This document shows, piece by piece, positions 2 through 16,253 of a stretch of DNA of 21,335 nucleotides. The notes beneath the pieces are model-generated. The model did no database searches, had not been told where the DNA came from, and saw only the letters and a list, made by a program, of their open reading frames with translations. The stretch is from positions 1 through 21,335 of the forward strand of contig JAICWX010000141.1 of assembly GCA_025934635.1 (NCBI GenBank), in the 5' to 3' direction. The position numbers and the translations under genes were made by a program. The DNA is from Streptosporangiaceae bacterium (lineage in GTDB: Bacteria > Actinomycetota > Actinomycetes > Streptosporangiales > Streptosporangiaceae). Position 1 is the stretch's first letter, and the number at the start of each line of letters is the position of its first letter.

Positions 2-904
2 ACCGGTGGCGCGGCCAGCGGCAAGAACTACAAGATGACGTTCATCCAGGGCGTCGCCGGTGACGGCTTCTACGTCACCATGGGCTGCGGCATCCAGGCC
101 GAGGCCAAGAAGCTCGGCAACGTCACCGTGAACATCCAGGGCCCGACCCAGTTCGACGCCACGCTGCAGAACCCGATCATCCAGTCGGTCACCGCTGCCA
201 AGCCCGACGCGATCCTGATCGCCCCCAACGACGTGTCGGCCAGCCGGCCGCCGATCGCCGCGGCCATGGCCGCCGGCATCAAGGTCGTCCTCGTCGACAC
301 CACGCTGAGCGACCCGTCCGGCGCGGTTTCCCAGATCTCCTCGGACAACGTGGCCGGCGGCACCGCCGCCTTCACCGCCATCAAGCAGCTCGTGCCCGGC
401 GGCGGCCAGGTGCTCGTGGTCAACGTGAAGCCCGGCGTCAGCACCACCGACCAGCGCCAGCAGGGCTTCGCCACCGCGGCCCAGGCCGACTCCAAGTTCA
501 AGTACGTCGGCACCCAGTTCGACCAGGACAGCGCGTCCGTCGCCGCCCAGGTCACGCTGGCGGCGCTGCAGAAGAACCCCGGCATCGTCGGGATCTTCGC
601 GGCCAACCTGTTCTCGGCCGAGGGTGCCGCCACCGGCGTCCGCCAGGCCGGCAAGTCGGGCAAGGTCAAGATCATCGGGTTCGACGCCGAGCCGGACGAG
701 ATCACCGCGCTCCAGCAGGGCACGGTGCAGGGTCTCATCGCCCAGTCCCCGTATACCATCGGGACCGACGCGGTCGACCAGGCCTACGCGGCCCTGACCG
801 GCAAGGCGACCACCGCCAAGATCGGCACCAAGTTCACCATCATCACCAAGGACAACCTCAACTCCGCGGCCAGCCAGGCGGCGATCTACAAGACCAGCTG
901 CTGA
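2..904 (+). CDS. Sugar ABC transporter substrate-binding protein (RbsB-like), 5' end outside window
   Basis: This is the C-terminal part of an extracellular sugar-binding lipoprotein of the Peripla_BP_4 (ribose/xylose/galactose-type) family, which hands a sugar to an ABC permease. The open frame enters from the left edge with no start codon and reads TGGAASGKNYKMTFIQGV, so the signal peptide and first residues are missing. Visible family features are the first-lobe strand FIQGV, PDAILIAPNDVSA (the 'two lobes contact the sugar' loop), DTTLSD, SDNVAGGTAA and the late IIGFDAEPDEITALQQGTVQGLIAQSPY. It ends in TGA at 902-904. It is probably the last gene of a transporter operon whose ATPase and permease lie upstream. 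A LacI gene follows after 40 nt with no terminator between them, so the transporter probably serves the sugar processed by the downstream enzymes. The substrate cannot be read from the sequence. Confidence 0.9.
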   Translation, partial: TGGAASGKNYKMTFIQGVAGDGFYVTMGCGIQAEAKKLGNVTVNIQGPTQFDATLQNPIIQSVTAAKPDAILIAPNDVSASRPPIAAAMAAGIKVVLVDTTLSDPSGAVSQISSDNVAGGTAAFTAIKQLVPGGGQVLVVNVKPGVSTTDQRQQGFATAAQADSKFKYVGTQFDQDSASVAAQVTLAALQKNPGIVGIFAANLFSAEGAATGVRQAGKSGKVKIIGFDAEPDEITALQQGTVQGLIAQSPYTIGTDAVDQAYAALTGKATTAKIGTKFTIITKDNLNSAASQAAIYKTSC

Positions 905-944: not shown

Positions 945-1970
945 ATGACCACCATGCGCGACGTCGCTCGTGTCGCCGGAGTCAGTGCCAAGACCGTGTC
1001 CCGGGTCTTCAACGATGACCCTCATGTCACCGAGGAGACCCGGGACCGGGTCCGCTGGGCCATGGAAAAGCTCAACTACGTACCGAACATGCTGGCCCGC
1101 AGCTTCCGGGCCGGCGCCGACGCCGCGGTGGGCCTGGCCATTCCCGACATCGGCGACCCGTTCTTCGCCGCGATGACCGCCAGCATCGAGGTGGACCTGG
1201 GCGGGCGCGGGATGGCGGTCGTGGTGACCAGCCTGCGCCAGGGCGCCGAGCACGAGCGCTCGGCCCTCGAATCGCTGCTCCGGCGCCAGATCAGCGGCCT
1301 CATCGTGGCCGCCGTCAGCCCGGACCAGTCCTACCTGGCCCCGTGGCAGCAGCGGACCCCGGTCGTGTTCGTGGACCGGGCCCCGCGCGGCCTGTCCGGC
1401 GTCTACGTGATCGAGGACGACCTGGCCGGCGCGCGCGAGGCCGTCCTGCACCTGGCCAGCCACGGCCACCGGCGGGTGGCCTTCTTCGACATCTCCGCCC
1501 CGGTCATGACGACCCGGCGGCGGCTGAAGGGCTACCGGGCGGCCGTGACCGAGGCCGGCCTGGACGACCGCCCCGACTTCATCTGCACCCACGGCGAGTC
1601 GCCGGACGAATCCGCCACCGCGCTCGTCCGCCGCCTGGCGGCGCCGGACGCCCCCACCGCCGTGTTCTCCTCCAACGTCCCGTGCACGATGGCGCTCGTC
1701 CAGGCCCTGCACAAGGCGGGGCGCACCGACATCGCCGTGGTCGGGTTCGGCGACGTCCCGCTGGCCGCGGCGCTGTCGCCGGCCATCACCGTCATCGACC
1801 AGGACCCGGCCGGGCTGGGCCGCATCGCGGTCGAGCGGCTCCTGCAGCGCATCGAGGACCCCGGCGCGGCCGTCCGCCGCCGGACGGTCCTCCCGGTCCG
1901 GCTGATCCCGCGGGGCTCGGGGGAGCTGAGCCCGCCCACGCTGCCCCCATCCAGGAAGGAAGACCATTGA
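945..1970 (+). CDS. LacI-family transcriptional regulator (first of two paralogues)
   Basis: This is a 341-aa sugar-responsive repressor. The N-terminal helix-turn-helix is textbook LacI (MRDVARVAGVSAKTVSRVFNDDP, residues about 4-26), followed by the hinge helix (NYVPNMLARSFRAG) and a periplasmic-binding-protein-like effector domain with GLAIPDIGDPFFAAM and ALHKAGRTDIAVVGFGD. The ATG at 945 is preceded by GGAG at 934-937, a good Shine-Dalgarno at 7 nt. It follows the transporter gene by 40 nt, and its TGA overlaps the TTG start of the isomerase gene, so translation is probably coupled. It is clearly paralogous to the regulator at 3563: both share LHxAGRTDIA, PAITVID and a C-terminal RGSGEL. 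The effector is unknown; a sugar or sugar phosphate of this pathway is the natural guess. Confidence 0.92.
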   Translation: MTTMRDVARVAGVSAKTVSRVFNDDPHVTEETRDRVRWAMEKLNYVPNMLARSFRAGADAAVGLAIPDIGDPFFAAMTASIEVDLGGRGMAVVVTSLRQGAEHERSALESLLRRQISGLIVAAVSPDQSYLAPWQQRTPVVFVDRAPRGLSGVYVIEDDLAGAREAVLHLASHGHRRVAFFDISAPVMTTRRRLKGYRAAVTEAGLDDRPDFICTHGESPDESATALVRRLAAPDAPTAVFSSNVPCTMALVQALHKAGRTDIAVVGFGDVPLAAALSPAITVIDQDPAGLGRIAVERLLQRIEDPGAAVRRRTVLPVRLIPRGSGELSPPTLPPSRKEDH

Positions 1971-3220
1971 GCGAGCCCGGGACCCACGCATGGCGCCGCG
2001 CCGAGGCGCGGCGGCTGATCGCCTTCGGCCGGGCGTCCGCCCTGCCCGGCGGGGGATTCGGGTGGCTCGACAGCGACGGCGCCGTCGACCCCGCGCAGCC
2101 GCGCCCGCTCTACCTCAGCGCCCGCATGATCCACGTCTTCGCGCTGGCGTACCTGGGCGGTGACGCCGGTGCCCATGAGCTGGCCGCCTCTGGCCTGTCC
2201 GACCTGGTGAGCCGCTACGCCGACGGCCAGAACGGCGGCTGGTTCGCCAGCCTCGACTTCGCCGGCCGGGTCACCGACACCACCAAAGAGAACTACGCGC
2301 ACGCCCACACCCTGCTGGCGGCCTCCACCGCGATCGCGGCCGGCCTGCCCGGGGCGCAGGACCTGTTCGCCGCCACCGCGGACGCCATCGGCCGGCACTT
2401 CTGGTCCGACGCCGAAGGCTGCGCCCGTGACTCCTGGAACGCCGGCTTCACCGAGCTGGAGCCGTACCGCGGCGCCAACAGCAACATGCACTCGGTCGAG
2501 GCCTACCTCGCGGCCGGCGATGCCTGCGGCGATCCGGTCTGGCACCAGCGGGCCCTGTCCATCGCCGCCCACCTGATCGACGGGCACGCCCGGGCCAGCG
2601 CCTGGCGCGTCCCCGAGCACTACGACGAGAACTGGCGCCCCCTCCCGGACTACAACGACGACCACCGCGCCGACCAGTTCCGCCCCTACGGCACCACCCC
2701 CGGCCACTCCTTCGAATGGGCCCGCCTGCTGCTGGACCTCGAAGCGGCGCTCGGCGCCCCCGCGGCCACCCCCGCCCCCGCGGCCAGTCCTGCCCCGCCT
2801 CCCTGGCTGCTCGAGGCGGCCACCGGCCTGTTCGACGCGGCCGTCACCGACGCCGAAGCCCGCGACGGCCACCCGGGCCTGCTCTACACCGTCGATTCGG
2901 CCGGCCAGCCGGTGATCACCTCCCGGCTGCACTGGGTGGCCTGCGAGGCCGTCCTGGCCGCCGACGCCCTGCACCGCCGCACCGGCGAGGACCGCTTCGC
3001 CGCCGCCGCCGCCCGCTGGTGGGCCGACATCGACCGCTACTTCATCGACCGCCAGCGCGGCGGCTGGTGGCACGAGCTCACCCCCGAGCTGACCCCCGCC
3101 GCCGGCACCTGGACCGGCAAGCCCGACCTCTACCACGCCTACCAGTCCCTCCTGTTCCCCTCCCTCCCCCTCACCCCCACCGCCGCCCTCGCCCTGACCC
3201 AGGTCCCCCCGTCGCCCTGA
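1967..3220 (+). CDS. AGE-family sugar isomerase, YihS-like (sulfoquinovose/mannose aldose-ketose isomerase candidate)
   Basis: This is a 417-aa (alpha/alpha)6-barrel enzyme that should interconvert an aldose and its 2-ketose in the cytoplasm. It aligns by eye along its length with E. coli YihS: GFGWLDSDG (30-38), SARMIHVFA (51-59), NGGWFASLDFAG (89-100), YRGANSNMHSVEAY (167-180), WRPLPDYNDD (223-232), GTTPGHSFEWARLLL (242-256) and a terminal DLYH. R53, H175, H247 and H390 fall where YihS has its active-site Arg55, His176, His248 and His383. There is no ATG near the start of homology. The TTG at 1967 overlaps the LacI stop and has AGGAAGGA at 1953-1960 six nt upstream, giving the usual family length. 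Residues about 263-279 form an Ala/Pro-rich insert. YihS-type enzymes also isomerise mannose, fructose and glucose, so the true substrate is open. Confidence 0.85.
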   Translation: MSEPGTHAWRRAEARRLIAFGRASALPGGGFGWLDSDGAVDPAQPRPLYLSARMIHVFALAYLGGDAGAHELAASGLSDLVSRYADGQNGGWFASLDFAGRVTDTTKENYAHAHTLLAASTAIAAGLPGAQDLFAATADAIGRHFWSDAEGCARDSWNAGFTELEPYRGANSNMHSVEAYLAAGDACGDPVWHQRALSIAAHLIDGHARASAWRVPEHYDENWRPLPDYNDDHRADQFRPYGTTPGHSFEWARLLLDLEAALGAPAATPAPAASPAPPPWLLEAATGLFDAAVTDAEARDGHPGLLYTVDSAGQPVITSRLHWVACEAVLAADALHRRTGEDRFAAAAARWWADIDRYFIDRQRGGWWHELTPELTPAAGTWTGKPDLYHAYQSLLFPSLPLTPTAALALTQVPPSP

Positions 3221-3246
3221 CCAGGTCCCCCGTCGCCCTAAACCAG
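3191..3246 (+). repeat. Short tandem duplication across the isomerase stop codon
   Basis: The unit GCCCTGACCCAGGTCCCCC... occurs at 3191-3213 (23 nt) and again at 3214-3234 (21 nt, two single-C deletions), with a degenerate third start at 3235-3246 (GCCCTAAACCAG). The first unit encodes the end of the isomerase; the second begins with the stop codon. It looks like replication slippage in a C-rich tract. Confidence 0.75.
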
Positions 3247-3369
3247 CCGTCACCATCCCCTCATCCAGCCACCCCGCCCCTAGCCCAGTGGCCCCCCGCT
3301 CAGCCGCCGCGCCCCCGCCGCCACCCCCGCCCCACATTCCCCGCCAGTCACTGTGCCGGTCCCCGCCTA

Positions 3370-3431
3370 GCGACATGAATGCTCCATCCATGTCGTTATC
3401 GCGACATCGATGCTCCACCGATGTCGTTAAC
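3370..3431. repeat. Two 31-nt tandem units, each an inverted repeat (CGACAT...ATGTCG)
   Basis: Unit 1 begins at 3370 and unit 2 at 3401; both read GCGACAT, two variable bases, ATGCTCCA, three variable bases, ATGTCGTTA. Inside unit 1 the arms CGACATG (3371-3377) and CATGTCG (3389-3395) pair. In unit 2 the arms are CGACATCG (3402-3409) and CGATGTCG (3419-3426). The variable bases have changed in a compensating way, keeping the arms complementary, which argues for selection on symmetry. Unit 2 also holds CATCGATG (3405-3412), the core of the downstream palindromes. Likely a protein-binding array; which protein is unknown. Confidence 0.65.
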
Positions 3432-3460
3432 GGCGCCGCCCCACCCCCGCCCCACTCCTT

Positions 3461-3508
3461 TGCCATCGATGGCACATGTATGTCAGAATGAGCGTGCGAT
3501 CGATGGCA
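3461..3508. promoter_or_regulatory. Pair of LacI-type operators TGCCATCGATGGCA upstream of second lacI gene
   Basis: A perfect 14-bp palindrome, TGCCATCGATGGCA, lies at 3461-3474. A second copy with one changed base, TGCGATCGATGGCA, lies at 3495-3508, 34 bp centre to centre. Symmetry about a central CG is the hallmark of LacI-family operators. The sites flank a possible promoter (TTTGCC at 3459-3464 and CAGAAT at 3484-3489, 19 bp apart, weak). They are best explained as autoregulatory sites for the adjacent regulator that also control the kinase and aldolase genes. Binding is inferred. Confidence 0.7.
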
Positions 3509-3562
3509 CGACCACATCAAGCGCAGCGACACCAAGAACGCCAAGAACGCCAGGGAGGCCGG

Positions 3563-4561
3563 ATGCCGAGGCTGCTCGACGTGGCGAACGCGGCCGGGGT
3601 GAGCCTGCGCACCGCGTCGCGGGTGCTGAACGACGATCCGCGGGTCGCCCCGGACACCCGGCAGCGCGTCCAGGCCGCCATCACCAGCCTGCGGTTCTCA
3701 CCCGACGCCATGGCCCGGTCCCTGCGGGCCGGGACGGACACCGCGATCGGCTTCGTGGTCGAGTCGATCTCCGACCCGTTCTTCGCCGGGGTGATCGACG
3801 CCGTCGAGCAGCAGCTGTCGCCGCACGGCCGGTCCGTGCTGGTCGCGAGCACGCGGCGCGACGCGGCCCGGGAACGCGACGTCGTCGAGCGCATGCTCCG
3901 GCGCCGCGTCGCCGGGCTCTTGCTCAGCCCGGCCAATGGCAGCCACGCCTGGCTCGACCCCCAGGTGCCGGTCGTCCTCGTCGACCGGCCGGCTCCGGGC
4001 CTGGCCGCGGACCTGGTCGAGATCGACGACCACCGCGCCGCGTTCGACGCGGTGGTCCATCTCATCGCCCGCGATCACCAGCGCATCGCCTACGTGGGCG
4101 ACACCCCCGCCATCGCCACCTCGGCCGCCCGGCTGCGCGGGTATCGCGACGCCCTGCGCGAGCACGGCATCGCGGCCGACGAGTCGCTGATCCGCTGCGA
4201 CAGCGACACCAGCACCGAGGCCGCCCGCACCACGTCCGCCCTGGTCGACCGGGACCGCCCGCCGACCGCCATCCTGAGCGCCACCATCCGGGCGTCGCTG
4301 GGCGTGGTGCCGGCCCTGCACGCCGCCGGGCGCACCGACATCGCCCTGGTCGCATTCGGCGACTTCCCCATGGCCGACACCCTGCGCCCCGCGATCACCG
4401 TGATCGACCACCCCGGCCACGAGGTCGGCCGGGTGGCCGCGGCCAGGCTGCTGGCCCGGCTGGCCGATCCCGCCCTCCCGGTCGAGCGCATCCGGGTCCC
4501 GGCCCGGATCATCGAGCGCGGTTCCGGCGAGCTGTACCCACGCTGGCCGGCCCCGTGGTGA
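3563..4561 (+). CDS. LacI-family transcriptional regulator (second paralogue)
   Basis: This is a 332-aa repressor with the LacI helix-turn-helix (LLDVANAAGVSLRTASRVLNDDP, about residues 4-26), hinge (DAMARSLRAG) and sugar-sensing domain (SISDPFFAGV, LHAAGRTDIALVAFGDFPMAD). The ATG at 3563 was chosen because AGGGAGG (3552-3558) precedes it and the HTH then begins at the family's usual position. An in-frame ATG at 3476 would add 29 unrelated residues and would place the start between the two operators. The gene overlaps the kinase start by the GTGA at 4558-4561, so regulator, kinase and aldolase are probably one transcript. It is a paralogue of the regulator at 945, so one locus has two related sensors. 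Confidence 0.92.
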   Translation: MPRLLDVANAAGVSLRTASRVLNDDPRVAPDTRQRVQAAITSLRFSPDAMARSLRAGTDTAIGFVVESISDPFFAGVIDAVEQQLSPHGRSVLVASTRRDAARERDVVERMLRRRVAGLLLSPANGSHAWLDPQVPVVLVDRPAPGLAADLVEIDDHRAAFDAVVHLIARDHQRIAYVGDTPAIATSAARLRGYRDALREHGIAADESLIRCDSDTSTEAARTTSALVDRDRPPTAILSATIRASLGVVPALHAAGRTDIALVAFGDFPMADTLRPAITVIDHPGHEVGRVAAARLLARLADPALPVERIRVPARIIERGSGELYPRWPAPW

Positions 4562-5922
4562 CCGGAACCACCGGCGTCGTCATCGGCCTCGACATCGGCA
4601 CCACCTCAGCCAAGGCCGTCATCCAGCGGGCCCCAGGCTGCCCCGCTCACGACAACGCCGCCCGTTACGCCGAACAGCCCACCCCCTGGCAGACCCACGC
4701 CGACGGCCAGACCGAGATCGACCCGCACCGCCTGACCAAAGTAGCCGTGGACCTCATCGGCGCCGCCGTCCGCTCCGCCGAGCAGCACCACGGCCCCGTC
4801 CACGTCCGCGCCATCGGCGTCACCGGCCTGGCCGAAAGCGGCGTCCTCCTCGACGCGGCCGGCCGTCCCGTCGCGCCGGCCATCGCCTGGTTCGACCACC
4901 GCGGCGCCCGCGAGCTCGAGCACCTGGCCCGGCGGGAACCGGCCTTCGCCGCCGCCTTCGCGCGCACCACCGGACTCCCGTGGTCGAGCCAGGCCAGCCT
5001 GGCCAAGCTCCTGTGGCGGCAAGCCAGCGGCCACCACGCCGGCCCCAAAGCGACCTGGCTGAGCGTCCCCGAATGGATCGTCTTCGCCCTGGGCGGCGAC
5101 CAGGTCCGCGAGCCGTCGCTCGCCTCCCGCACCGGCCTCATCGACCAGGGCACCGGCCAGCCCTGGCCCGAGGCCCTGGCCGCCGCCGGCCTCCCGGACG
5201 GAATCCTCCCCGCCGAGCGCCTGGCCGGCCACCCCGCCGGCCGCCTCACACACGAGGACGTCACCACCAGCGCCGCCGGAGCGGTGCTCACCGTAGCCGG
5301 GCACGACCACCCGGTCGCCGCCATCGCCGTCGGCGCCACCGGCCCGGACGAGCTGTTCAACTCCAGCGGCACCGCGGACGTCCTGGCCCGCTCCGTCCCG
5401 GGCACCATCGACGAAACCAGCCGCCAGGCCATCGTCGACGCCGGCTGGTCGGCCGGCCGGCACGTCTTGCCGGACACCAGCCTGCTGCTGGCCGGCGTCA
5501 GCGGCGGCCTGCTGCTCCGCCGCGTCCTGACCGCCCTCGGCGCCGGCACAGAAACCACCCGGGCCGCCCTCGACCAGGCCAGCATGCTCATCAACGAGCT
5601 GCCCCCCGGCCTGGAAGTCACCGGCGACGGCCGCAGTCAGGACGACGTGGTCCTGCGCATCCAGGACGGCGCCACCCCGGCCGCGATCTGGACCGCGGCC
5701 GTGCATTACACCGCGGAGCAGGCCAGCCGCCTGCTCACCGACATCGAGAAGATCGTCGGTCCGCACCAGCGGGCCGTGGCGGCCGGGGGCTGGACGCAGA
5801 TGGCCAGCGTGCGCGCGGCCAAGGCGGCCGTGCTCGACGCGCTGAGCTTCTCGCCCGTGGTGCAGCCGGGCGTCACCGGCGCCGCCCTGCTCGCCTGCTA
5901 CGCACTGGAAGGAAAGAGATGA
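4558..5922 (+). CDS. FGGY-family carbohydrate kinase
   Basis: This is a 454-aa two-domain sugar kinase using ATP to phosphorylate a ketose or polyol. The phosphate-1 motif GLDIGTTSAKAV lies at residues 10-21. The catalytic loop is VAGHDHPVAAIAVGATG with the presumed base D250. The second phosphate loop FNSSGTADVL and the C-terminal adenosine motif VAAGGWTQMASVRAAKA are also present. The start is GTG at 4558 (overlapping the regulator stop) or GTG at 4555, one codon earlier; neither has a strong Shine-Dalgarno, which suggests translational coupling. The stop overlaps the aldolase ATG as ATGA (5919-5922). Between a YihS-like isomerase and a LacD/YihT-like aldolase it should make the ketose 1-phosphate (or 6-phosphate) that the aldolase splits. 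FGGY substrates cannot be told from motifs alone. Confidence 0.88.
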   Translation: MTGTTGVVIGLDIGTTSAKAVIQRAPGCPAHDNAARYAEQPTPWQTHADGQTEIDPHRLTKVAVDLIGAAVRSAEQHHGPVHVRAIGVTGLAESGVLLDAAGRPVAPAIAWFDHRGARELEHLARREPAFAAAFARTTGLPWSSQASLAKLLWRQASGHHAGPKATWLSVPEWIVFALGGDQVREPSLASRTGLIDQGTGQPWPEALAAAGLPDGILPAERLAGHPAGRLTHEDVTTSAAGAVLTVAGHDHPVAAIAVGATGPDELFNSSGTADVLARSVPGTIDETSRQAIVDAGWSAGRHVLPDTSLLLAGVSGGLLLRRVLTALGAGTETTRAALDQASMLINELPPGLEVTGDGRSQDDVVLRIQDGATPAAIWTAAVHYTAEQASRLLTDIEKIVGPHQRAVAAGGWTQMASVRAAKAAVLDALSFSPVVQPGVTGAALLACYALEGKR

Positions 5923-6842
5923 ACCAGACAACCCGCAACCGAACGGACCGAACGGGAACCCTCGACGACATCGCGGCCGGCGATCACGTGTTCTCCATCA
6001 TCGCCATGGACCAGCGCAACACATTGCGCCGGATGTTCGCGGCCGCCGGGCACGACGCGACCGACGACGACCTGCGCACCGCCAAGGCCGACGTCGCGCG
6101 GATCCTGACCCCGGGCGCCTCCGGCCTGCTGTCCGATCCCACCTACGGCGTCCCGGCCATCACCGAAGCGGGCGCGCTCGCCCCCGGTTGCGGGCTGCTG
6201 GTCGCGGCCGAGCCCGCCGAGCGGCGCAGCTACCAGGGCGAGCCGCGCACCCACCGCGACCCCGACCTGAACGCCCGCTGGGTCCTGGACCAGGGCGGCG
6301 ACGCCCTGAAGTTCTTCCTCCAGCTGCGCGCCGACCGCCCGGCCCCCGGAGCTGGCGAGCCCGACCTGGTCGCGGAGGGTCTCGCCGTCTGCGCGGAGAT
6401 CATCAAGGACGGCCGGGCCGAAGGCGTCCCCGTGGTCATCGAGAACCTCATCTACTCGCGGCCGGGGGAGGACCTGACCGCCCAGGCCCGCGAGGACGCC
6501 ATCATCGAGGCCGCCCGGGCCCTCAACGACCTGGACATCGACCTGCTCAAGCTCGAGTACCCCGGTTCGCCGGAAGGCTGCCGGCGACTGGCCGGGATCC
6601 TCACCCGGCCATGGGCCGTGCTGTCCGCGGGCGTGCCCTTCGACCAGTTCACCGACATCATCGAGATCGCGGCCGACGAAGGCGGGGCCTCCGGCTTCAT
6701 CGCCGGCCGCTCGGTGTGGCGCGAGGTGGTGGGCCTGTCCGGCCGTCACCGCGAGGAATTCCTCACCACGGTGGCCCGCCCCCGCCTGGACCGGCTGGTC
6801 GAGGTGGCCAGCCGCCGCGCCCGCCCCTGGTCGTCAATATAA
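5919..6842 (+). CDS. Class I aldolase, YihT/LacD family (sulfofructose-1-P or tagatose-1,6-bisphosphate-type)
   Basis: This is a 307-aa TIM-barrel aldolase forming a Schiff base with its ketose-phosphate substrate and releasing DHAP and an aldehyde. It resembles E. coli YihT closely by eye: FSIIAMDQRNTLRRMFAAAG (25-44), DALKFFLQLRAD, DLLKLEYP with the presumed Schiff-base lysine K211, WAVLSAGV (232-239) and GASGFIAGRSVWREVVGL (256-273). Other likely active-site residues are D31, E175 and R264. Its length is nearer YihT (about 292 aa) than LacD (about 325 aa). GGAA/GGAAAG at 5908-5916 precedes the ATG, which overlaps the kinase stop. No terminator is visible downstream; the MarR promoter begins at once. 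Substrate candidates are sulfofructose phosphate, fructose or tagatose phosphates, or a deoxyketose phosphate. Confidence 0.85.
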   Translation: MNQTTRNRTDRTGTLDDIAAGDHVFSIIAMDQRNTLRRMFAAAGHDATDDDLRTAKADVARILTPGASGLLSDPTYGVPAITEAGALAPGCGLLVAAEPAERRSYQGEPRTHRDPDLNARWVLDQGGDALKFFLQLRADRPAPGAGEPDLVAEGLAVCAEIIKDGRAEGVPVVIENLIYSRPGEDLTAQAREDAIIEAARALNDLDIDLLKLEYPGSPEGCRRLAGILTRPWAVLSAGVPFDQFTDIIEIAADEGGASGFIAGRSVWREVVGLSGRHREEFLTTVARPRLDRLVEVASRRARPWSSI

Positions 6843-6893: not shown

Positions 6894-7763
6894 ATGACTT
6901 CCATGAACGTGCTTGCCACGCCCACCCTGATGCGGCTGGCCCGCGGCGCCTACGCCCAGGCCATCCGGGCCCAGCTGGACCACATCGGGGTCGATGACCT
7001 GCCCCGGAACGGCGCCTTCATGCTGGCCGGGATCGACGCCGCGGGCACGTCCGGCACCGCGGGCGAGCCGCGGCCGGACCTGACTGGTGAGCTCGGCGTC
7101 ACCAAGCAGGCCGTCAGCCACCTGATCGACGTGCTGGCCAGCCGCGGCTACGTCGAGCGGGCCGCCGACTCCGGCGACCGCCGCCGGGTCGCCCTCCAGC
7201 TGACCGGCCGCGGCCGCGAGGTCGTCGAGGCCGTCGTCCGCGGCGTGGACCTGGTCGACGAACAGCTCGCCGACCGGCTGCCGGACGGTCAGGTCGAGGC
7301 GATGCGGGCCGGCCTCATCGCCCTGGCCGAGATCAAGGCCGAGGACCTCGCCACCGGCCGGGGCGCGCGTCGCCCGGACGCGGGCCCGGCCCGCCAGCTC
7401 CGCCGCTTCAGCCCCATCTTCGGCGTCCGCGACCTGGCCGCCGCCCTGGCGCACTACGCCTCGCTCGGCTTCCGCACCTCTGCCTACACAGAAGCCGACC
7501 ACGCTGGCGCCGGCTACTACGGCTTCGCCGACCGCGACGGCACCGGGCTGCACCTAGCCCTGCGCGAATCCGGCTCCGACCTGCACCCGGGCGCGGCCTA
7601 CCTCTACGTGCGCGACGCGGACGCGCTGTACGAACAGTGGAGCCGGCCCGGCATCGGCGGCCACACCCACCCGGCCGTCCCGACCGACTACAAGCTGCGC
7701 GAGGGCTCCCATACCGACCCGGACGGCAACCTCATCCGGTTCGGTTCCCCGCTGGGGGAGTGA
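6894..7763 (+). CDS. MarR-family regulator fused to a VOC (glyoxalase/bleomycin-resistance-like) domain
   Basis: This is a 289-aa two-domain protein. Residues about 8-150 form a MarR winged-helix module, with the recognition region LTGELGVTKQAVSHLIDVLASRGYVER (63-89) and wing DSGDRRRVALQLTGRG. After an Arg/Ala/Gly-rich linker (about 153-170), residues 171-289 form a VOC fold (FSPIFGVRDLAAALAHYASLGF ... HTDPDGNLIRFGSPLGE) of the bleomycin-resistance/dioxygenase type. MarR proteins normally end near residue 150, so the VOC domain is an added module and may be the ligand sensor or a small-molecule binding shield. The ATG at 6894 is favoured by the promoter spacing; a second in-frame ATG is at 6903. 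Its 3' end overlaps kstD tail-to-tail by 32 nt. Confidence 0.85.
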   Translation: MTSMNVLATPTLMRLARGAYAQAIRAQLDHIGVDDLPRNGAFMLAGIDAAGTSGTAGEPRPDLTGELGVTKQAVSHLIDVLASRGYVERAADSGDRRRVALQLTGRGREVVEAVVRGVDLVDEQLADRLPDGQVEAMRAGLIALAEIKAEDLATGRGARRPDAGPARQLRRFSPIFGVRDLAAALAHYASLGFRTSAYTEADHAGAGYYGFADRDGTGLHLALRESGSDLHPGAAYLYVRDADALYEQWSRPGIGGHTHPAVPTDYKLREGSHTDPDGNLIRFGSPLGE

Positions 7764-9459
7764 CCTCGGCGGAGGGCCCGGCCATGGCCTGCACCGCGAT
7801 ATAGCCGAACGTCATGGCCGGCCCGATGGTCGCCCCCGCCCCCGCGTAGCTGTGCCCCATCACCGCCGCGCTCGCGTTGCCCGCCGCGTACAGCCCCTCG
7901 ATCACCGTGCCGTCCGGGCGCAGTACCCGCGCGCGCTCGTCGGTACGCAGCCCGCCCTTGGTGCCCAGGTCGCCGGGGACGATCGTGACCGCGTAGAACG
8001 GCGGCTTGTCCAGCGGGGCCAGGTTGGGGTTGGCCAGCCGCGGGTCGCCGTAGTAGCGGTCGTAGGCCGAGTCGCCCCGCCCGAAGTCCTCGTCCTGGCC
8101 TGCCGCCGCGAACTCGTTGAACCGGGCCACCGTCTTGACCAGGCCGTCGGCGTCCACCCCGGCCGCCGCCGCCAGCCCCGCCAGGGTGCCCTCCCGGACC
8201 ACCGAGCCATGCGCGTACCAGCGCCGCGGCAGCGGCCGGTGCGGCGGCAGCCCGGCGAACAGGTACCGGTCCCGGTAGCGCTGGTCGAAGACCAGCCAGG
8301 CCGGGATGTGCGGGTTCTCCGCCGTGTGCCCGTCGTACATCGCGTGCACCGCGTCGACGTAGGGCGCCGACTCGTTGACGAACCGCTGGCCCGCCCCGTT
8401 GACCATGATGCAGCCGGGCAGGTTGCGCTCGGACAGGCAGAAGTACGGGCCGCCGGGCAGCGCGATCGACGGCCCCCACCAGGCGTCGTCCATCAGCGCG
8501 GTGTCCGCGCCCAGCTCCATCCCCGCCCGGATCCCGTCGCCGGTATTGGCAGGCGCGCCGGTCGTCCACCCGGTCCCGATCGGCTCGCGCTGGTACTGGT
8601 GCCGCATCTCCTCGTTGCGCTCGAACCCGCCCGCCGCGATCAGGACCCCGCGCCGGGCCCGGATCAGCACCGGCTTCCCGTCCCGGACGGCATGTACCCC
8701 CGTCACCCGGCCGCCCGTCATCCCCGAACCGCCCGCCACCCCGGGTTCGCCCGTCACCTCCAGGCGTGTCAGCGCCGTATCCAGCCACACCGGCACATCC
8801 GCTCGCAGCAGCCCCGCCCGCAGCCCCGCCGCCAGCGCCTGCCCCAGGCTGAGCGTCCGCTGCCCGCGCAGCCGCGCCCGGGCCGCCCGGGCCGCCACCC
8901 GCGCCGCCGCCCGGATGCCCCGGGGATGACGCCCCAGGGTGAGCCACCGGTACTCCGCCTGGGTAATGGCCACCGGCGACGGCAGGTACGGCCGGGCCAG
9001 GTGCGCCAGCTCACCGCCCAGCACCCCGCCAGGGAACGGAACGGGTTCGATGCTGCGCCCCGCCGCCAGGCCGCCCGGCGCCTCGGGGTAGTAGTCCGCG
9101 TACCCGGGCACCCAGGAGAACCGTAGCGGCGTCATCGCCAGCACCAGCTCCAGCATGGCCGGCCCGTGCTCGAGGAATGCCTCCCGCGATTCCGCGGGGA
9201 CGTCCCCGGCCACGTACGCCAGGTAGGCGCGGCTCTGCTCCGGCGTGTCAGCCACCCCGGCGCCGCGCAGCACGGCGTTGCCGGGCGCCCAGATCCCGCC
9301 CCCCGACCGGGCCGTCGACCCGCCGAAGGAAGCGGCCTTCTCGATGACCAGAGCACTCAGCCCGAGGTGGGCCGCCGTCAGCGCGGCCGTCATCCCGGCC
9401 GCCCCGCTCCCCGCGATCACCACGTCTACCTCGGCCGCCACGCCGCCTTCGTGTCCCAT
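7732..9459 (-). CDS. kstD: 3-Ketosteroid delta-1-dehydrogenase (KstD-type flavoprotein)
   Basis: This is a 575-aa FAD enzyme of the fumarate-reductase/KstD family that introduces the C1-C2 double bond into ring A of 3-ketosteroids. The dinucleotide fold VDVVIAGSGAAGMTAAL has G17, G19 and G22, followed by IEKAASFGGSTARSGGGIWAPGN. The C-terminal catalytic segment PFYAVTIVPGDLGTKGGLRTDE matches the Tyr and Gly region (Tyr487/Gly491 in Rhodococcus KstD1). A Tyr pair in PGYADYYPE (about 119-125) is near the expected second catalytic tyrosine. ATG at 9459 is preferred over the in-frame GTG at 9486 because a TAACGT -10 (9473-9468) lies 8 nt before it and a KstR-like box spans that point. KstD-like enzymes vary in substrate, so a related ketosteroid or bile-acid dehydrogenase is possible. 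Confidence 0.85.
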   Translation of the reverse strand: MGHEGGVAAEVDVVIAGSGAAGMTAALTAAHLGLSALVIEKAASFGGSTARSGGGIWAPGNAVLRGAGVADTPEQSRAYLAYVAGDVPAESREAFLEHGPAMLELVLAMTPLRFSWVPGYADYYPEAPGGLAAGRSIEPVPFPGGVLGGELAHLARPYLPSPVAITQAEYRWLTLGRHPRGIRAAARVAARAARARLRGQRTLSLGQALAAGLRAGLLRADVPVWLDTALTRLEVTGEPGVAGGSGMTGGRVTGVHAVRDGKPVLIRARRGVLIAAGGFERNEEMRHQYQREPIGTGWTTGAPANTGDGIRAGMELGADTALMDDAWWGPSIALPGGPYFCLSERNLPGCIMVNGAGQRFVNESAPYVDAVHAMYDGHTAENPHIPAWLVFDQRYRDRYLFAGLPPHRPLPRRWYAHGSVVREGTLAGLAAAAGVDADGLVKTVARFNEFAAAGQDEDFGRGDSAYDRYYGDPRLANPNLAPLDKPPFYAVTIVPGDLGTKGGLRTDERARVLRPDGTVIEGLYAAGNASAAVMGHSYAGAGATIGPAMTFGYIAVQAMAGPSAEVTPPAGNRTG

Positions 9460-9461
9460 AC

Positions 9462-9475
9462 TAGAACACGTTACA
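9462..9475 (-). promoter_or_regulatory. KstR-like operator at the kstD start
   Basis: TAGAACACGTTACA matches the published mycobacterial KstR consensus TNNAACNNGTTNNA at every fixed base. It begins three bases upstream of the kstD ATG and contains TAACGT (- strand, 9473-9468), a TANNNT -10 element placed 8 nt before the ATG, consistent with a leaderless kstD transcript. Repression by a KstR-type TetR protein encoded elsewhere is inferred. Confidence 0.7.
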
Positions 9476-9512
9476 GTTTTGCCCACCCGCCAGGAAGGCG
9501 CGGAACGAGGAA

Positions 9513-9560
9513 GTCGGCGTGCCCCCCGGTACGTAAGAAGGTACCCGGGGGCACACCGAC
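9513..9560 (-). terminator. Hairpin terminator between the peroxiredoxin gene and kstD
   Basis: GTGCCCCC (9520 region) pairs with GGGGGCAC, GGTAC pairs with GTACC inside it, and GTCGG/CCGAC extend the base across single mismatches, leaving an 8-nt loop. It begins 12 nt after the peroxiredoxin stop. There is no clear U tract, as is common for actinobacterial terminators. It would separate the peroxiredoxin transcript from kstD. Confidence 0.6.
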
Positions 9561-9571
9561 CCCTGCTAGCG

Positions 9572-10228
9572 CTACTTGGGCTGGGGCACGATCCGGATGT
9601 AGGGCTTGGGCGACTGCCACTCGCCGAAGATCTCCTTGGCCTGGTCGTTGGAGACCGAGCCGGCGATGATCACGTCCTCGCCCTGCTTCCAGTTCACCGG
9701 CGTGGCCACCTTGTGCTTGGCCGTGAGCTGCAGCGAGTCGACCACCCGCAGCACCTCGTCGAAGTTGCGGCCGGTGGTCATCGGGTAGACCAGCACCAGC
9801 TTGATCTTCTTGTCCGGGCCGATGACGAACACGTTCCGCACCGTCTGGTTGTCAGCCGGCGTGCGCGCCTTGGCGTCACCGGAGACGTCGGCCGGCAGCA
9901 TCCCGTAGGCCTTGGCCACCTTGAACTCGTTATCCGCGATCAGCGGGTAGTTCGGCGCCGTGCCCTGGGTTTCCTCGATGTCGGCGGCCCAGCGCTCGTG
10001 GTCACCGGTCGAGTCGACCGACAGGCCGATGATCTTCACGCCGCGCTTGTCGAACTCCGGCTTGATCTTGGCCATGTAGCCGAGCTCGGTCGTGCAGATC
10101 GGGGTGAAGTCCTTGGGGTGCGAGAACAGGACCCCCCACGAGTCCCCGAGCCAGTCATAGAAGTGGATCGGGCCTTCGCTCGTCTCCGCTTCGAAGTCGG
10201 GGGCGGTGTCCCCGATGGTCAATGGCAT
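9572..10228 (-). CDS. 1-Cys peroxiredoxin (Prx6-type AhpC/TSA)
   Basis: This is a 218-aa cytoplasmic peroxidase reducing H2O2 and organic hydroperoxides. The peroxidatic motif HPKDFTPICTTELGYM holds C45, the only cysteine in the protein, so it is a 1-Cys enzyme needing an outside reductant (mycothiol or ascorbate-like systems are possible). The C-terminal NWKQGEDVIIAGSVSNDQAKEIFGEW is typical of the Prx6 group, as is the length. The ATG at 10228 has AGGAGG six nt upstream; an in-frame extension to 10285 would add 19 unrelated residues. It lies downstream of kshB in the same direction but 102 nt away, behind a palindrome, so it is probably a separate unit. It could detoxify peroxide leaking from the neighbouring oxygenase and flavoenzymes; that is inference. 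Confidence 0.93.
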   Translation of the reverse strand: MPLTIGDTAPDFEAETSEGPIHFYDWLGDSWGVLFSHPKDFTPICTTELGYMAKIKPEFDKRGVKIIGLSVDSTGDHERWAADIEETQGTAPNYPLIADNEFKVAKAYGMLPADVSGDAKARTPADNQTVRNVFVIGPDKKIKLVLVYPMTTGRNFDEVLRVVDSLQLTAKHKVATPVNWKQGEDVIIAGSVSNDQAKEIFGEWQSPKPYIRIVPQPK

Positions 10229-10241
10229 GGTTTTCCTCCTC

Positions 10242-10302
10242 GATGCTGAGAAAACAGCATCCGCCTTGGTGCCGAGAAACAGCATCCGTGCTTAGCACGG
10301 AT
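10242..10302. promoter_or_regulatory. 19-bp perfect palindrome and adjacent hairpin repeat upstream of the peroxiredoxin gene
   Basis: ATCCGTGCT-T-AGCACGGAT (10284-10302) is a perfect 9-bp-arm palindrome. Next to it GATGCTG (10242-10248) pairs with CAGCATC (10255-10261). The element GAGAAA(A)CAGCATCCG is present twice, 25-26 bp apart (10248 and 10274). The palindrome could be a repressor site for the peroxiredoxin promoter or the end of the kshB transcript; on the - strand it is followed by only a weak T-rich stretch. Confidence 0.5.
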
Positions 10303-10330
10303 CGGCCCCTCCGCGCAATTTACGACAGAG

Positions 10331-11353
10331 TCAGTAGGTAATGCTGACCTCGGTGGTCAGCGCGACGGCCTGGCAGGCCAGGATGTAGCCCTCGTCCAGG
10401 TCGGCCTGCTCGAGCACCTCGTTGTGGGCCATCTCCACCTCGCCGCCGGTGAGCTGGCAGGCGCAGGCGCCGCAGATGCCCTGGCGGCAGGAAAACGGCG
10501 CGTCCAGGCCGGCCTCGGTGAGCACGTCCAGCATCCGGACCCCGGCTGGCCACGGCAGCCGCTTGGTCGCGCCGTCCTCCAGCGTCACCGCCAGCATGGC
10601 CTCGGGCCCGCCGGCCGGTGCGGTACCGGCCTCGAACGGGTTGTCCGCCAGCGACAGGAACCGCTCCACGTGCAGCCGTTTGGCGGGCACGCCGAGCTGC
10701 CCGAGCGCCTCCCGCACCAGGCCCAGGAACGGATCAGGGCCACAGATATATGTCTCGTAAGACACATACGGCCGGGCCAGGGCCGCGATCGCCGCGGCCG
10801 ACGGCACGCCGAGCAGCGAATCCAGCCAGTGCACCACCGTCAGCCGCCCGGCCGAGGCGGCCACCAGCTCGCGCAGGGCCGGGCCGAAGATCACCGAGCG
10901 CTCGTCCCGGTTGGCGTAGACCAGCACCACCCGCCCCTGCCCGGCGGCCAGGGCCGACTTCAGGATCGACATCACCGGCGTGATCCCGCTCCCCGCCGCG
11001 AACAGCAGGAAATCGGCATTCAAAACCTTGGGGACGAACGTGCCCGCCGGCGCCATCACGTCGAGCACGCTCCCGGCCGTGATGGTGTCGTGGATCCAGT
11101 TCGACGCGTACCCGCCGTCGGTCCGCTTGACCGTGATGGCGGGCCGGTCCCCGGCGTGCGGCGAGCTCGACAGCGAGTAACAGCGGGCCACCGAGCCGGT
11201 CTGCTCCGACGGCACCCGCACGGTAATGAACTGCCCGGGCCGGTACCCGAACGCGGCGGCGAGCGCCGGCGGCACGTCCAGCACCAGCGAGCAGGCGTCG
11301 TCGGTCTCCCGGACCACCTCGGCCACCGGCACCTGGAAATACTCCCGGGTCAA
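10331..11353 (-). CDS. kshB: 3-Ketosteroid 9-alpha-hydroxylase, reductase subunit KshB
   Basis: This is a 340-aa electron-transfer flavoprotein that passes electrons from NADH to KshA. The FAD motif RCYSLSSSP is at 57-65, and the nucleotide-binding segments GSGITPVMSILKSA (121-134) and YICGPDPF (202-209) follow. A C-terminal plant-type [2Fe-2S] ferredoxin domain has C289, C294, C297 and C327. The homology begins at LTREYFQVPVAEVVRET. The TTG at 11353 overlaps the stop of the preceding 90-aa gene (TTGA) and has GAGGTG eight nt upstream, so it is taken as the start; no ATG or GTG is available there. It is the third gene of the kshA operon. Similar reductases serve other Rieske oxygenases, but the KshA and Hsa neighbours make KshB the likely identity. 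Confidence 0.88.
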   Translation of the reverse strand: MTREYFQVPVAEVVRETDDACSLVLDVPPALAAAFGYRPGQFITVRVPSEQTGSVARCYSLSSSPHAGDRPAITVKRTDGGYASNWIHDTITAGSVLDVMAPAGTFVPKVLNADFLLFAAGSGITPVMSILKSALAAGQGRVVLVYANRDERSVIFGPALRELVAASAGRLTVVHWLDSLLGVPSAAAIAALARPYVSYETYICGPDPFLGLVREALGQLGVPAKRLHVERFLSLADNPFEAGTAPAGGPEAMLAVTLEDGATKRLPWPAGVRMLDVLTEAGLDAPFSCRQGICGACACQLTGGEVEMAHNEVLEQADLDEGYILACQAVALTTEVSITY

Positions 11354-11622
11354 GGAGGCGACACCTCGAGCCGCCCGGTCGTCACCGCCGCGTCGATGCT
11401 GTCCCGCAGGCTGCCGCACCCGGCCACGCGGGCGGACGTCTGGCCCAGTGACCCGAACGCCATGAACTCCGCGCAGGTCCGCACCGCGGTGTCGGTCCAC
11501 TGCACCATCGTGTGCTGCGGGCTGAACTTGGCCGCCAGCACCTGCGCGCCGCACCGCCCGCACGCCACGGCGCAGAAGGACGCGGCCCGTTCGTCCCGCG
11601 GCCGGTGCCCGTTAACCAGCAT
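11350..11622 (-). CDS. Small Cys-rich protein of unknown function between kshA and kshB
   Basis: This 90-aa protein has five cysteines, including ACGRCG (C21-x2-C24), C17, C50 and C69, followed by QVLAAKFSPQHTMVQWTDTAVRTCAEF. The CxxC with further cysteines suggests a zinc ribbon or a small metal site. The spacing does not match an ordinary [2Fe-2S] or 4Fe ferredoxin. Its ATG overlaps the kshA 3' end by 11 nt and its TGA overlaps the kshB TTG, so it is sandwiched in a coupled three-gene unit and is very probably translated with the oxygenase. A role in assembling or delivering electrons to KshA would fit but is not shown. I do not recognise a named family. Confidence 0.8.
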   Translation of the reverse strand: MLVNGHRPRDERAASFCAVACGRCGAQVLAAKFSPQHTMVQWTDTAVRTCAEFMAFGSLGQTSARVAGCGSLRDSIDAAVTTGRLEVSPP

Positions 11623-12769
11623 CGCCCTGATGGGCCTGGGCCCGCGCCAGGTTCTCCGCGACCTCGGCCTCCCAGCCGGCCACCGACCGGGTCGTGTCGA
11701 TCTCGAACTCGAACCGGGCCGTCATGTCCGGCTCGATGTCGGCCACGTCCCGGTAGAACTGCTCGTACCAGCGGCGCACCTGGTAGACCGGGCCGTCCTC
11801 GGCGCACAGCAGCGGGTTGTCGATCCGCGCCTTGTTCAGCCAGATCGCCACGTCCTGCTGGAAGCCCAGCCCGACGAAGTCGGCGAACTTGACCGCCACC
11901 CGGGTCGCCTGGCCGTCCGACAGGCCGGCCGGCTTCTTCACGATCGCCCCCCACTGCAGCCGGAACGAGGTGGGGGAGACCGGGTAATGGCAGTTGATCA
12001 GGACGCTCTCCATGGTCATGCCGCGGTAGTCATGCCACAGGTAGTCGATCATGTACGACGGCCCGTAGTACGACGCCTCGGAGCGCAGCGAGGTCTCGAT
12101 GCCCCCGCCGGAGGCGGATGCCGCGGAGTAGCTGGACACCCCGTCGATGTCGGGGCGCGACCGGGTGTTCAGGTACTGCGTCGCGATATGGCCCTCGAAG
12201 ACGTTCTTGAAGAACGTGGGGAACGCGAAGTGGATGTAGAAGAAGTGCGCCATGTCCACCACGTTGTCGATGACCTCGCGGCAGTTCGCCCCCTCGACCA
12301 GGATCGAGTCCCAGGTCCAGTCGGTCCACTCCGGCGAGCCGACGCCCTCGATGGGCGGGATCACGACGTCGTCCGGCGGCGGGTTGCCCTCGGCGTCGTG
12401 CCAGACGAACAGCTGGCCGTTCTGCTCCAGCGTGCGCCAGGACCGGGTGCGGGCCGCCACCGGGACCCGCCGGGCGTACGGGATCCCCGCGCACCGGCCG
12501 TCCCCGCCCCAGCGCCAGTCGTGGAACGGGCAGGCGACGGCGTCGCCCTTGACCGTGCCCTGGGTGAGGTCGCCGCCCATGTGGCGGCAGTAGCCGTCCA
12601 GCACGTGCAGGGCACCCCCGGAATCGGCGAACACCACCAGCTTGGTGCCGAACGCCTGCACCGCGTGCGGTCCGCCGTCCCGGAACCGGGCCGCCAGGCC
12701 CAGGCAGTGCCAGCCGCGCGCGAACCTGGCCGGCGGCGGGCCCGCTTCGATGGTCCGTACCTGATCCAT
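11612..12769 (-). CDS. kshA: 3-Ketosteroid 9-alpha-hydroxylase, oxygenase subunit KshA
   Basis: This is a 385-aa Rieske non-heme iron oxygenase that hydroxylates C9 of androstadienedione-type steroids; with KstD action this breaks ring B. The Rieske ligands are C61 and H63 (CRH) and C80 and H83 (CPFH). The mononuclear iron segment DNVVDMAHFFYIHF carries H175 and H180, and the C-terminal EDGPVYQVRRWYEQFYRD probably supplies the acidic ligand. This motif set is close to mycobacterial and rhodococcal KshA. The ATG at 12769 lies six nt after a -10 (TAGTCT), so the mRNA is probably leaderless. It heads the operon kshA, 90-aa gene, kshB and is divergent from hsaA across a shared KstR-like operator. 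Confidence 0.92.
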   Translation of the reverse strand: MDQVRTIEAGPPPARFARGWHCLGLAARFRDGGPHAVQAFGTKLVVFADSGGALHVLDGYCRHMGGDLTQGTVKGDAVACPFHDWRWGGDGRCAGIPYARRVPVAARTRSWRTLEQNGQLFVWHDAEGNPPPDDVVIPPIEGVGSPEWTDWTWDSILVEGANCREVIDNVVDMAHFFYIHFAFPTFFKNVFEGHIATQYLNTRSRPDIDGVSSYSAASASGGGIETSLRSEASYYGPSYMIDYLWHDYRGMTMESVLINCHYPVSPTSFRLQWGAIVKKPAGLSDGQATRVAVKFADFVGLGFQQDVAIWLNKARIDNPLLCAEDGPVYQVRRWYEQFYRDVADIEPDMTARFEFEIDTTRSVAGWEAEVAENLARAQAHQGDAG

Positions 12770-12775
12770 ACCTCT

Positions 12776-12797
12776 AGACTAGAACATGTTCTAGTCT
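12776..12797. promoter_or_regulatory. Divergent kshA/hsaA promoters inside a 22-bp perfect palindrome (KstR-like box)
   Basis: The 22 bp at 12776-12797 are a perfect palindrome whose core TAGAACATGTTCTA (12780-12793) matches the KstR consensus TNNAACNNGTTNNA. Each outer end supplies TAGTCT as a -10 element: 12792-12797 for hsaA (six nt before the ATG at 12804) and 12781-12776 for kshA (six nt before the ATG at 12769). Both transcripts should therefore be leaderless, and one bound dimer pair would block both -10 boxes. No clear -35 was seen on either side. Confidence 0.82.
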
Positions 12798-12803
12798 TGG
12801 CAT

Positions 12804-13985: not shown

Positions 13986-16253
<2,268 letters not shown>

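Follow-up and report, generated by a model that had tools for sequence, protein, structure and literature searches.

The gene cluster considered here lies on a stretch of 21,335 nucleotides from a Streptosporangiaceae bacterium (contig JAICWX010000141.1 of assembly GCA_025934635.1), the whole of which is called the window, and it contains genes for an isomerase, a kinase of the FGGY family and a class I aldolase. Its closest described counterparts are several pathways of sugar degradation. In the fucose and rhamnose pathways (FucI-FucK-FucA and RhaA-RhaB-RhaD) an FGGY kinase acts on a ketose and an aldolase yielding dihydroxyacetone phosphate (DHAP) follows, with aldolase and isomerase families other than those of the window. 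The tagatose 6-phosphate/1,6-bisphosphate pathway (LacC-LacD) makes use of a phosphotransferase system (PTS) and of a class I aldolase of the LacD superfamily. In the sulfoglycolytic Embden-Meyerhof-Parnas pathway (sulfo-EMP), which breaks down the plant sulfosugar sulfoquinovose and is represented by the yih genes of E. coli and, according to excerpts of PMC8873060, by Arthrobacter, an isomerase, a kinase and a class I aldolase follow each other. Finally, in 2017 it was proposed that two kinases and a LacD-type aldolase degrade mannoheptulose in Rhodobacteriaceae bin08. According to that paper (PMC5507952), this pathway, itself a prediction, comprises an Avi_5339-like ATP-binding cassette (ABC) transporter, a COG3684 aldolase and COG1940 and COG0529 kinases; the sugar would be phosphorylated at C7 and then at C1, and cleaved to DHAP and erythrose 4-phosphate. 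The same paper mentions, as an unpublished observation of others, that Avi_5339 was found to bind mannoheptulose.

The window probably comprises the greater part of a locus with which an uncultured actinobacterium uses a ketose. It is fairly probable that a ketose is imported, phosphorylated by the FGGY kinase and cleaved to DHAP by the aldolase, and that the FGGY kinase stands in place of a ROK kinase and not of the sulfofructose kinase YihV. The genes are arranged as follows:

2..904, plus strand: sugar ABC solute-binding protein (Peripla_BP_4), truncated at its 5' end by the window edge
945..1970, plus strand: LacI1 regulator (Pfam LacI and Peripla_BP), coupled to the isomerase, whose TTG start is overlapped by its stop
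1967..3220, plus strand: AGE-family aldose-ketose isomerase (PF07221, 345.9 bits), of the YihS subfamily by its catalytic residues and in a separate clade
3563..4561, plus strand: LacI2 regulator (Pfam LacI, 55.1 bits), first gene of the kinase-aldolase operon
4558..5922, plus strand: FGGY sugar kinase with an AGHDH motif, in its own clade, with a GTGA overlap with LacI2
5919..6842, plus strand: class I (Schiff-base) aldolase of the DeoC/LacD family (PF01791, 69.2 bits) with K211, with an ATGA overlap with the kinase

Start and stop codons overlap at three joints (LacI1-isomerase, LacI2-kinase and kinase-aldolase), and two units are formed, LacI1-isomerase (945-3220) and LacI2-FGGY kinase-aldolase (3563-6842), both located 3' of the sugar-binding protein gene. 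A preliminary description of this DNA had placed the isomerase, the kinase, the aldolase, a LacI gene and the sugar-binding protein correctly, and did not mention the second LacI gene (3563-4561). As this gene lies between isomerase and kinase, the isomerase belongs to the LacI1 unit and the kinase and aldolase to the LacI2 unit.

The kinase-aldolase set is a conserved actinobacterial module. A scan of a collection of species genomes with exact words from actinobacterial aldolases, which reaches close relatives only, gave 48 loci, many of them short. The titles of 45 loci name members of Actinomycetota; the remaining three are titled Rubrivirga (L029, whose gene order is that seen in two Micrococcales metagenome-assembled genomes, MAGs), uncultured bacterium (L033) and Rhodospirillales (L047, 27%). 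According to the record titles, the sources are bog, soil, lake and offshore actinobacteria. Spirilliplanes yamanashiensis and Asanoa are among the cultured organisms that carry the module, and L004 is a Jatrophihabitans locus. The kinase is present in 44 loci, in 43 of them next to the aldolase and in 32 next to a LacI gene; a small AAA-type kinase is found in 35. Genes for an RbsABC-type importer are also frequent (ATPase in 34 of the 48, permease in 29, binding protein in 27). A PfkB kinase resembling 1-phosphofructokinase (1-PFK) occurs in 26 loci (24 by clustering), and in 23 it immediately precedes LacI in the same orientation. This PfkB scores 199 bits with the hexose kinase/1-PFK model (cut-off 216.4), where YihV scores 51, and an enzyme of 1-PFK type would need a free hydroxyl group at C6 of its substrate. 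An isomerase resembling phosphomannose isomerase (PMI) is found in 14 of the 48 loci, and none has both this gene and an AGE isomerase. No description of the FGGY version of the module was found in the open-licence literature searched, and the locus is apparently an undescribed actinobacterial variant of a pathway for ketose import and aldol cleavage.

The fullest orthologous locus, L084 of genome G002, carries on one side genes for a mannitol-dehydrogenase-family protein, a XylB-like FGGY kinase, a zinc dehydrogenase, a permease and an ATPase, and on the divergent side those for the solute-binding protein, LacI1, the isomerase, an AAA kinase, LacI2 and the kinase. This gene set is probably what lies upstream of the window. 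The best PDB match of the mannitol-dehydrogenase-family protein is mannitol 2-dehydrogenase (7rk4, 486 bits), and its NCBIfam matches, fructuronate reductase and D-arabinitol dehydrogenase (346.6 bits, cut-off 600), both fall below their cut-offs; the XylB-like protein reaches 352.6 bits (cut-off 380.25) and the zinc dehydrogenase resembles ketose reductases and sorbitol dehydrogenases. L122 has the same gene order up to the end of its contig, L085 has mannitol-dehydrogenase-type and XylB-like genes, and L004 has a XylB-like gene and no dehydrogenase within its 10 kb flank. A polyol-type dehydrogenase thus accompanies three of the four loci with a close isomerase. The D-arabinitol dehydrogenase-like and XylB-like genes could also speak for a pentulose or pentitol route, in which D-lyxose, xylitol or arabinitol would give xylulose or ribulose 1-phosphate and then DHAP and glycolaldehyde. 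Related to this, YihS-subfamily enzymes convert lyxose and xylulose (excerpts of PMC7762179). On the other hand, the 1-PFK-type PfkB of the relatives and an aldolase of the LacD/YihT family point to hexuloses or longer sugars, and the pentulose route is judged improbable.

Two further families were seen among the neighbours of the module. One (C10) occurs in 11 of the 48 loci, and its member in L032 (4755-5858, minus strand) had no Pfam or NCBIfam match. The other (C14) is found in L004 (10884-11897), L191 (16724-17722), L032 (1626-2639) and L036 (1553-2566), in all four followed by a PfkB kinase (C12); it matches weakly an aldolase-type NCBIfam model (19.3 bits) and F420-dependent oxidoreductases (E 0.005), and its L032 member has no Pfam match.

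In the proposed pathway, the RbsABC-type importer, of which only the binding protein is in the window, would take up either a ketose or, as its precursor, an aldose or polyol. The AGE isomerase would convert the aldose into the ketose, and the polyol-type dehydrogenases of some orthologous loci could produce it from an alditol. The ketose would then be phosphorylated by the FGGY kinase, most likely at C1, and in many relatives a second phosphate may come from the 1-PFK-like PfkB, from the small AAA-type kinase or from both. Finally, the class I aldolase would cleave the phosphorylated ketose to DHAP and an aldehyde or aldehyde phosphate.

The kinase has the FGGY domains, the two-domain fold and the nucleotide and catalytic Asp motifs of the family. 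Its AGHDH motif corresponds to AGHDT in FucK, SHDT in RhaB and GGGDN in XylB, so that HD is common to the first three, and FucK and RhaB are taken here to be C1 kinases. In the tree, where the E. coli branches are long and solely the module clade and its sister group were used, the kinases of the fucose and rhamnose pathways form clades separate from the module kinase. The AGHD shared with fuculokinase, and the HD shared also with rhamnulokinase, would fit the degradation of a 6-deoxyhexose, for example D-rhamnose or D-quinovose, through a 6-deoxyketose 1-phosphate to DHAP and lactaldehyde. This route is considered very unlikely: a 1-PFK-like kinase accompanies the module in the 26 loci mentioned above, and an aldehyde dehydrogenase (ALDH) was matched in one of the 48, no search having been aimed at lactaldehyde-handling genes.

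As regards the aldolase, the closest solved relative is YihT (114 bits, against 68 for LacD), and K211 aligns with K193 of YihT and K205 of LacD (the residue numbers of YihT here, and of YihS below, are presumed). In the tree, the YihT proteins of E. coli and Enterobacter and all 11 rows that we labelled as sulfofructosephosphate aldolases (SFPA) fall in a clade of 14 rows (100/98) inside a superclade of 20 rows (100/99). The window aldolase lies outside this superclade, in a clade of module aldolases that joins it (91/85), and LacD, a single Lactococcus sequence in both the tree and the residue comparison, is farther off on a long branch; the L032 aldolase is absent from the tree (it was not picked by the gene caller). 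Twelve positions are fixed differently in the module and YihT sets (12 and 10 rows), and Lactococcus LacD shares its residue with the window at six of these and with YihT at two. The scores stay below the curated cut-offs (PRK12858, 159.9, cut-off 184; TIGR01232, the model of LacD tagatose-bisphosphate aldolase, 60.3 bits, cut-off 432.2). The LacC-LacD pathway resembles the module in its class I LacD-superfamily aldolase and in the 1-PFK/LacC-like PfkB of the relatives, and differs from it in that the module has an ABC importer instead of a PTS, an FGGY kinase and an aldolase with about 28% identity to that of Lactococcus.

The binding protein points to a ketose of the D-tagatose or D-mannoheptulose type. 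By sequence, its best PDB match is 5dkv from Agrobacterium vitis ('Avis_5339' in the title; 197.9 bits, the next match having 108). At 14 pocket positions, which are presumably the ligand positions of the ribose-binding protein, 13 residues are identical to the ones in a Rhizobium relative (546.5 bits against 5dkv), and seven to the ones in E. coli RbsB; 10 of the 14 are identical across all 18 rows other than RbsB, including that of Embleya (L217). In Rhizobium tumorigenes and Aureimonas the same type of transporter is encoded beside a LacD-type aldolase and beside a ROK-AAA_33 fusion kinase, whose AAA part is below the Pfam cut-off in Rhizobium and above it in Aureimonas. The rhizobial aldolases show 31-34% identity to that of the window and belong to another subclade, and rhizobial-type aldolases share 44-46% with the aldolase of the actinobacterial locus L188; the Agrobacterium aldolase groups with L187-L190 in the tree (100/99). 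This indicates that the module also exists with a second type of aldolase.

The window therefore shares with the predicted mannoheptulose pathway the Avi_5339 family of the binding protein and, judging from the PF01791 match without COG assignment, a COG3684-type (LacD) aldolase, and the related loci share the types of ATPase and permease and the small AAA-type kinase. It differs in the FGGY kinase instead of the ROK kinase, in the subclade of the aldolase and in the addition of an AGE or PMI-like isomerase and of LacI regulators, and no AAA kinase was found in the window. Because it lacks a ROK kinase as well as a second one, the window is not filed as a member of that pathway; taken together, the evidence makes it an actinobacterial relative of the predicted route with an FGGY kinase in the ROK slot. 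A more specific possibility, put forward tentatively, is an actinobacterial pathway for a heptose or heptulose (mannoheptulose, perhaps derived from perseitol), in which the FGGY kinase would have replaced the ROK kinase, the isomerase would have been swapped between AGE and PMI-like types and the second kinase lost in the lineage of the window, so that the aldolase would cleave a ketose monophosphate and the chemistry of YihT would have been reached in a sister clade.

The closest solved relatives of the isomerase are YihS and sulfoquinovose (SQ) isomerases (307-320 bits), and its R53, H175, H247 and H390 align with R55, H176, H248 and H383 of YihS, as the preliminary description had proposed for these residues and for K211 of the aldolase. 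With the Arg and the three catalytic His, it has the residues that characterise the YihS subfamily of AGE isomerases, for which three His are the mark in excerpts of PMC7762179. In the tree it falls in a separate clade of 10 rows (100/100), outside the group in which the YihS proteins of E. coli and Enterobacter join the isomerases of L198 and L199 (100/100); a fragmentary isomerase encoded at the module locus L190 falls on the YihS side (92/72). Fifteen positions are fixed differently between the module (10 rows, L043 left out) and the YihS side (4 rows). Five of nine genomes checked whole have an AGE isomerase at E 1e-15; of the four without one, three carry a PMI-like gene at the locus. Relatives of the isomerase often occur without the module, as is seen from the numbers of matching genomes among 200 from the G002 family: 43 for the isomerase (E 1e-60), 12 for the kinase (E 1e-45) and 20 for the aldolase (E 1e-15). 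Besides, one database protein (P0281) joins AGE and AAA domains.

YihS-subfamily enzymes act on mannose, fructose, glucose, lyxose and xylulose (excerpts of PMC7762179), and a catabolism of D-mannose or D-fructose, with mannitol or sorbitol, has to be weighed: a D-mannose isomerase would supply fructose, the FGGY kinase would form fructose 1-phosphate, and the aldolase would cleave this product, either as such or once it has been phosphorylated again. The top NCBIfam family of the isomerase is in fact D-mannose isomerase (NF051846, 441.7 bits, below the cut-off of 600), although this model does not discriminate, since E. coli YihS scores 500.9. The mannitol-type and ketose-reductase-like dehydrogenases of L084 and the 1-PFK-like PfkB of the relatives also favour this catabolism, whereas the pocket of the binding protein matches the Avi_5339 group in a comparison that includes no fructose-binding protein. 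It is regarded as rather unlikely. Among the candidate substrates, the tagatose/mannoheptulose type is placed first and mannose/fructose second.

Several observations weigh against the ketose pathway proposed here. The preliminary description had suggested a three-step logic with an unrelated kinase; the pairing of FGGY kinase and aldolase, with an AGE isomerase nearby, agrees with it, but an AGE isomerase is found in just three of the 48 loci and is thus not a fixed part of the module, and the one in L043 is not a member of the clade of the window. The polyol context is not general either (zinc dehydrogenase in 8 of the 48, XylB-like gene in 3, mannitol-dehydrogenase type in none), and the upstream half, which lies beyond the window edge, is deduced from relatives. 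No AAA kinase was found between isomerase and LacI2 in the window or in L001, and a whole search of G001 at E 1e-8 gave only an AAA relative with 32% identity and no 1-PFK-like PfkB (a MAG, possibly incomplete), so that a bisphosphate route is hypothetical there. The HD residues also occur in the XylB-like kinase of L186, which weakens the argument for C1 specificity. The binding protein has just 41% identity to 5dkv, which by structural Z is tied with the arabinose-binding 6sw4. The Embleya protein has the same 14 pocket residues beside a similar AGE isomerase and a PfkB gene, no aldolase being seen by eye among the called open reading frames (ORFs), and this context fits mannose or fructose as well. 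Finally, no measured activity was found for any enzyme of the clade of the window.

The preliminary description had also offered a sulfosugar reading, in which an FGGY kinase would replace YihV in sulfo-EMP, and beside it a parallel route for another sugar; the evidence favours the latter. The sulfo-EMP pathway resembles the module in its three-enzyme logic, in the AGE and DeoC/LacD families and in the catalytic residues, its isomerase and aldolase are the closest solved relatives, and in the tree the clade of the window aldolase is attached to the YihT superclade and not to LacD. Yet both enzymes lie outside the clades uniting those of E. coli with actinobacterial sulfo-EMP-type enzymes, they are not orthologs of YihS and YihT, and the differently fixed positions point the same way. 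No window ORF matched YihQ or YihU (BLAST, E 1e-8), in agreement with the earlier remark that no sulfoquinovosidase or sulfolactaldehyde (SLA) reductase was in view, and none was a PfkB-type YihV. A YihQ-type glycosidase and an SLA reductase or dehydrogenase, which the preliminary description suggested looking for upstream, were not found in the orthologous loci L084, L085 and L122, and neither was YihV; the window likewise showed no SLA reductase or dehydrogenase, its own upstream DNA being outside the search. YihQ, YihS, YihT, YihU, YihV and TauE are the best match in none of the 48 loci, and the single ALDH is in L018. No report of an FGGY enzyme as sulfofructose kinase was found in the open-licence literature searched. 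As a yardstick, E. coli YihT was searched for in 396 genomes from the order to which the Microbacteriaceae MAG G208 belongs, with 33 genomes matching, and the actinobacterial sulfo-EMP-like clusters look different: L199 encodes relatives of YihS (62%), YihV (33%) and YihT (47%), a glycosidase with 27% identity to YihQ, ALDH, TauE and, by eye, ABC-type proteins, and L198 has YihS (59%), YihV (30%), YihT (51%), ALDH and TauE. Sulfo-EMP is therefore not supported for the window, a sulfosugar substrate being extremely unlikely.

Other combinations of these families were noticed. L131, L132 and L201 represent another type of cluster that pairs an FGGY kinase with a YihT-like aldolase, L131 having also a DUF1537-type kinase (SBD_N/NBD_C). 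L192-L197 carry a YihT relative, a gene with about 27-28% identity to YihQ and a YihV relative (called in four of the six), with a fucose-isomerase-like gene (by eye) at the place of YihS, possibly a hybrid of sulfo-EMP and EMP2.

With regard to regulation, LacI2 would repress the kinase and aldolase genes through two palindromes around its promoter:

3460..3489, plus strand: promoter-like site of the LacI2 unit, TTGCCA-18-CAGAAT, by consensus match only
3461..3474, plus strand: proposed LacI2 operator 1, perfect palindrome TGCCATCGATGGCA overlapping the -35 element
3495..3508, plus strand: proposed LacI2 operator 2, a copy with one mismatch just 3' of the -10 element, 34 bp from operator 1

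One promoter-like site was found, against a mean of 0.0 (sd 0.2) in shuffled sequences, and at least two such palindrome matches occurred in one of 100 shuffles. Exact copies are present twice in eight of the 48 loci, once in two and not in 38, many loci being short. Among nine relatives with upstream DNA inspected, the pair is present in seven, in one case with a mismatch, and neither copy is present in L019 or L030. When nine genomes were searched whole, exact copies appeared in seven, solely at the kinase-aldolase locus; copies with one mismatch occurred away from it in five (G001, G002, G004, G005 and G208), and a reversed control pattern matched in three. Given this distribution, LacI2 is best read as a local repressor within the clade of the window, and its unit looks like a self-contained operon. 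Just 5' of the LacI2 promoter, an interrupted inverted repeat, GACATnnATGCTCCAnCnATGTC, is present in two tandem copies (3372-3394 and 3403-3425); with three mismatches allowed it was found at three places, and as many in none of 100 shuffles.

Directly 3' of the aldolase, a gene at 6903-7763 encodes a fusion of a MarR domain and a glyoxalase-like domain. Steroid degradation genes follow at 7732-16253, with a 3-oxosteroid 1-dehydrogenase (834.5, cut-off 788) and HsaA, HsaD, HsaC and HsaB, all above their NCBIfam cut-offs. Among them, on the minus strand, are an oxidoreductase with a Fer2 domain and a Rieske-type gene, the latter recognised by eye and without NCBIfam match at 1e-30.

The module bears on environmental surveys too: part of its records are labelled sulfofructosephosphate aldolase or sulfoquinovose isomerase by JGI, and for this reason it may make metagenomic counts of sulfoglycolysis too high. 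If the substrate is indeed a heptulose or a tagatose-type sugar, the locus would give access to a branch of carbon use that is still largely unexplored, and it would be a clean case in which kinases (FGGY and ROK) and isomerases (AGE and PMI-like) have been exchanged around one type of transporter and aldolase.

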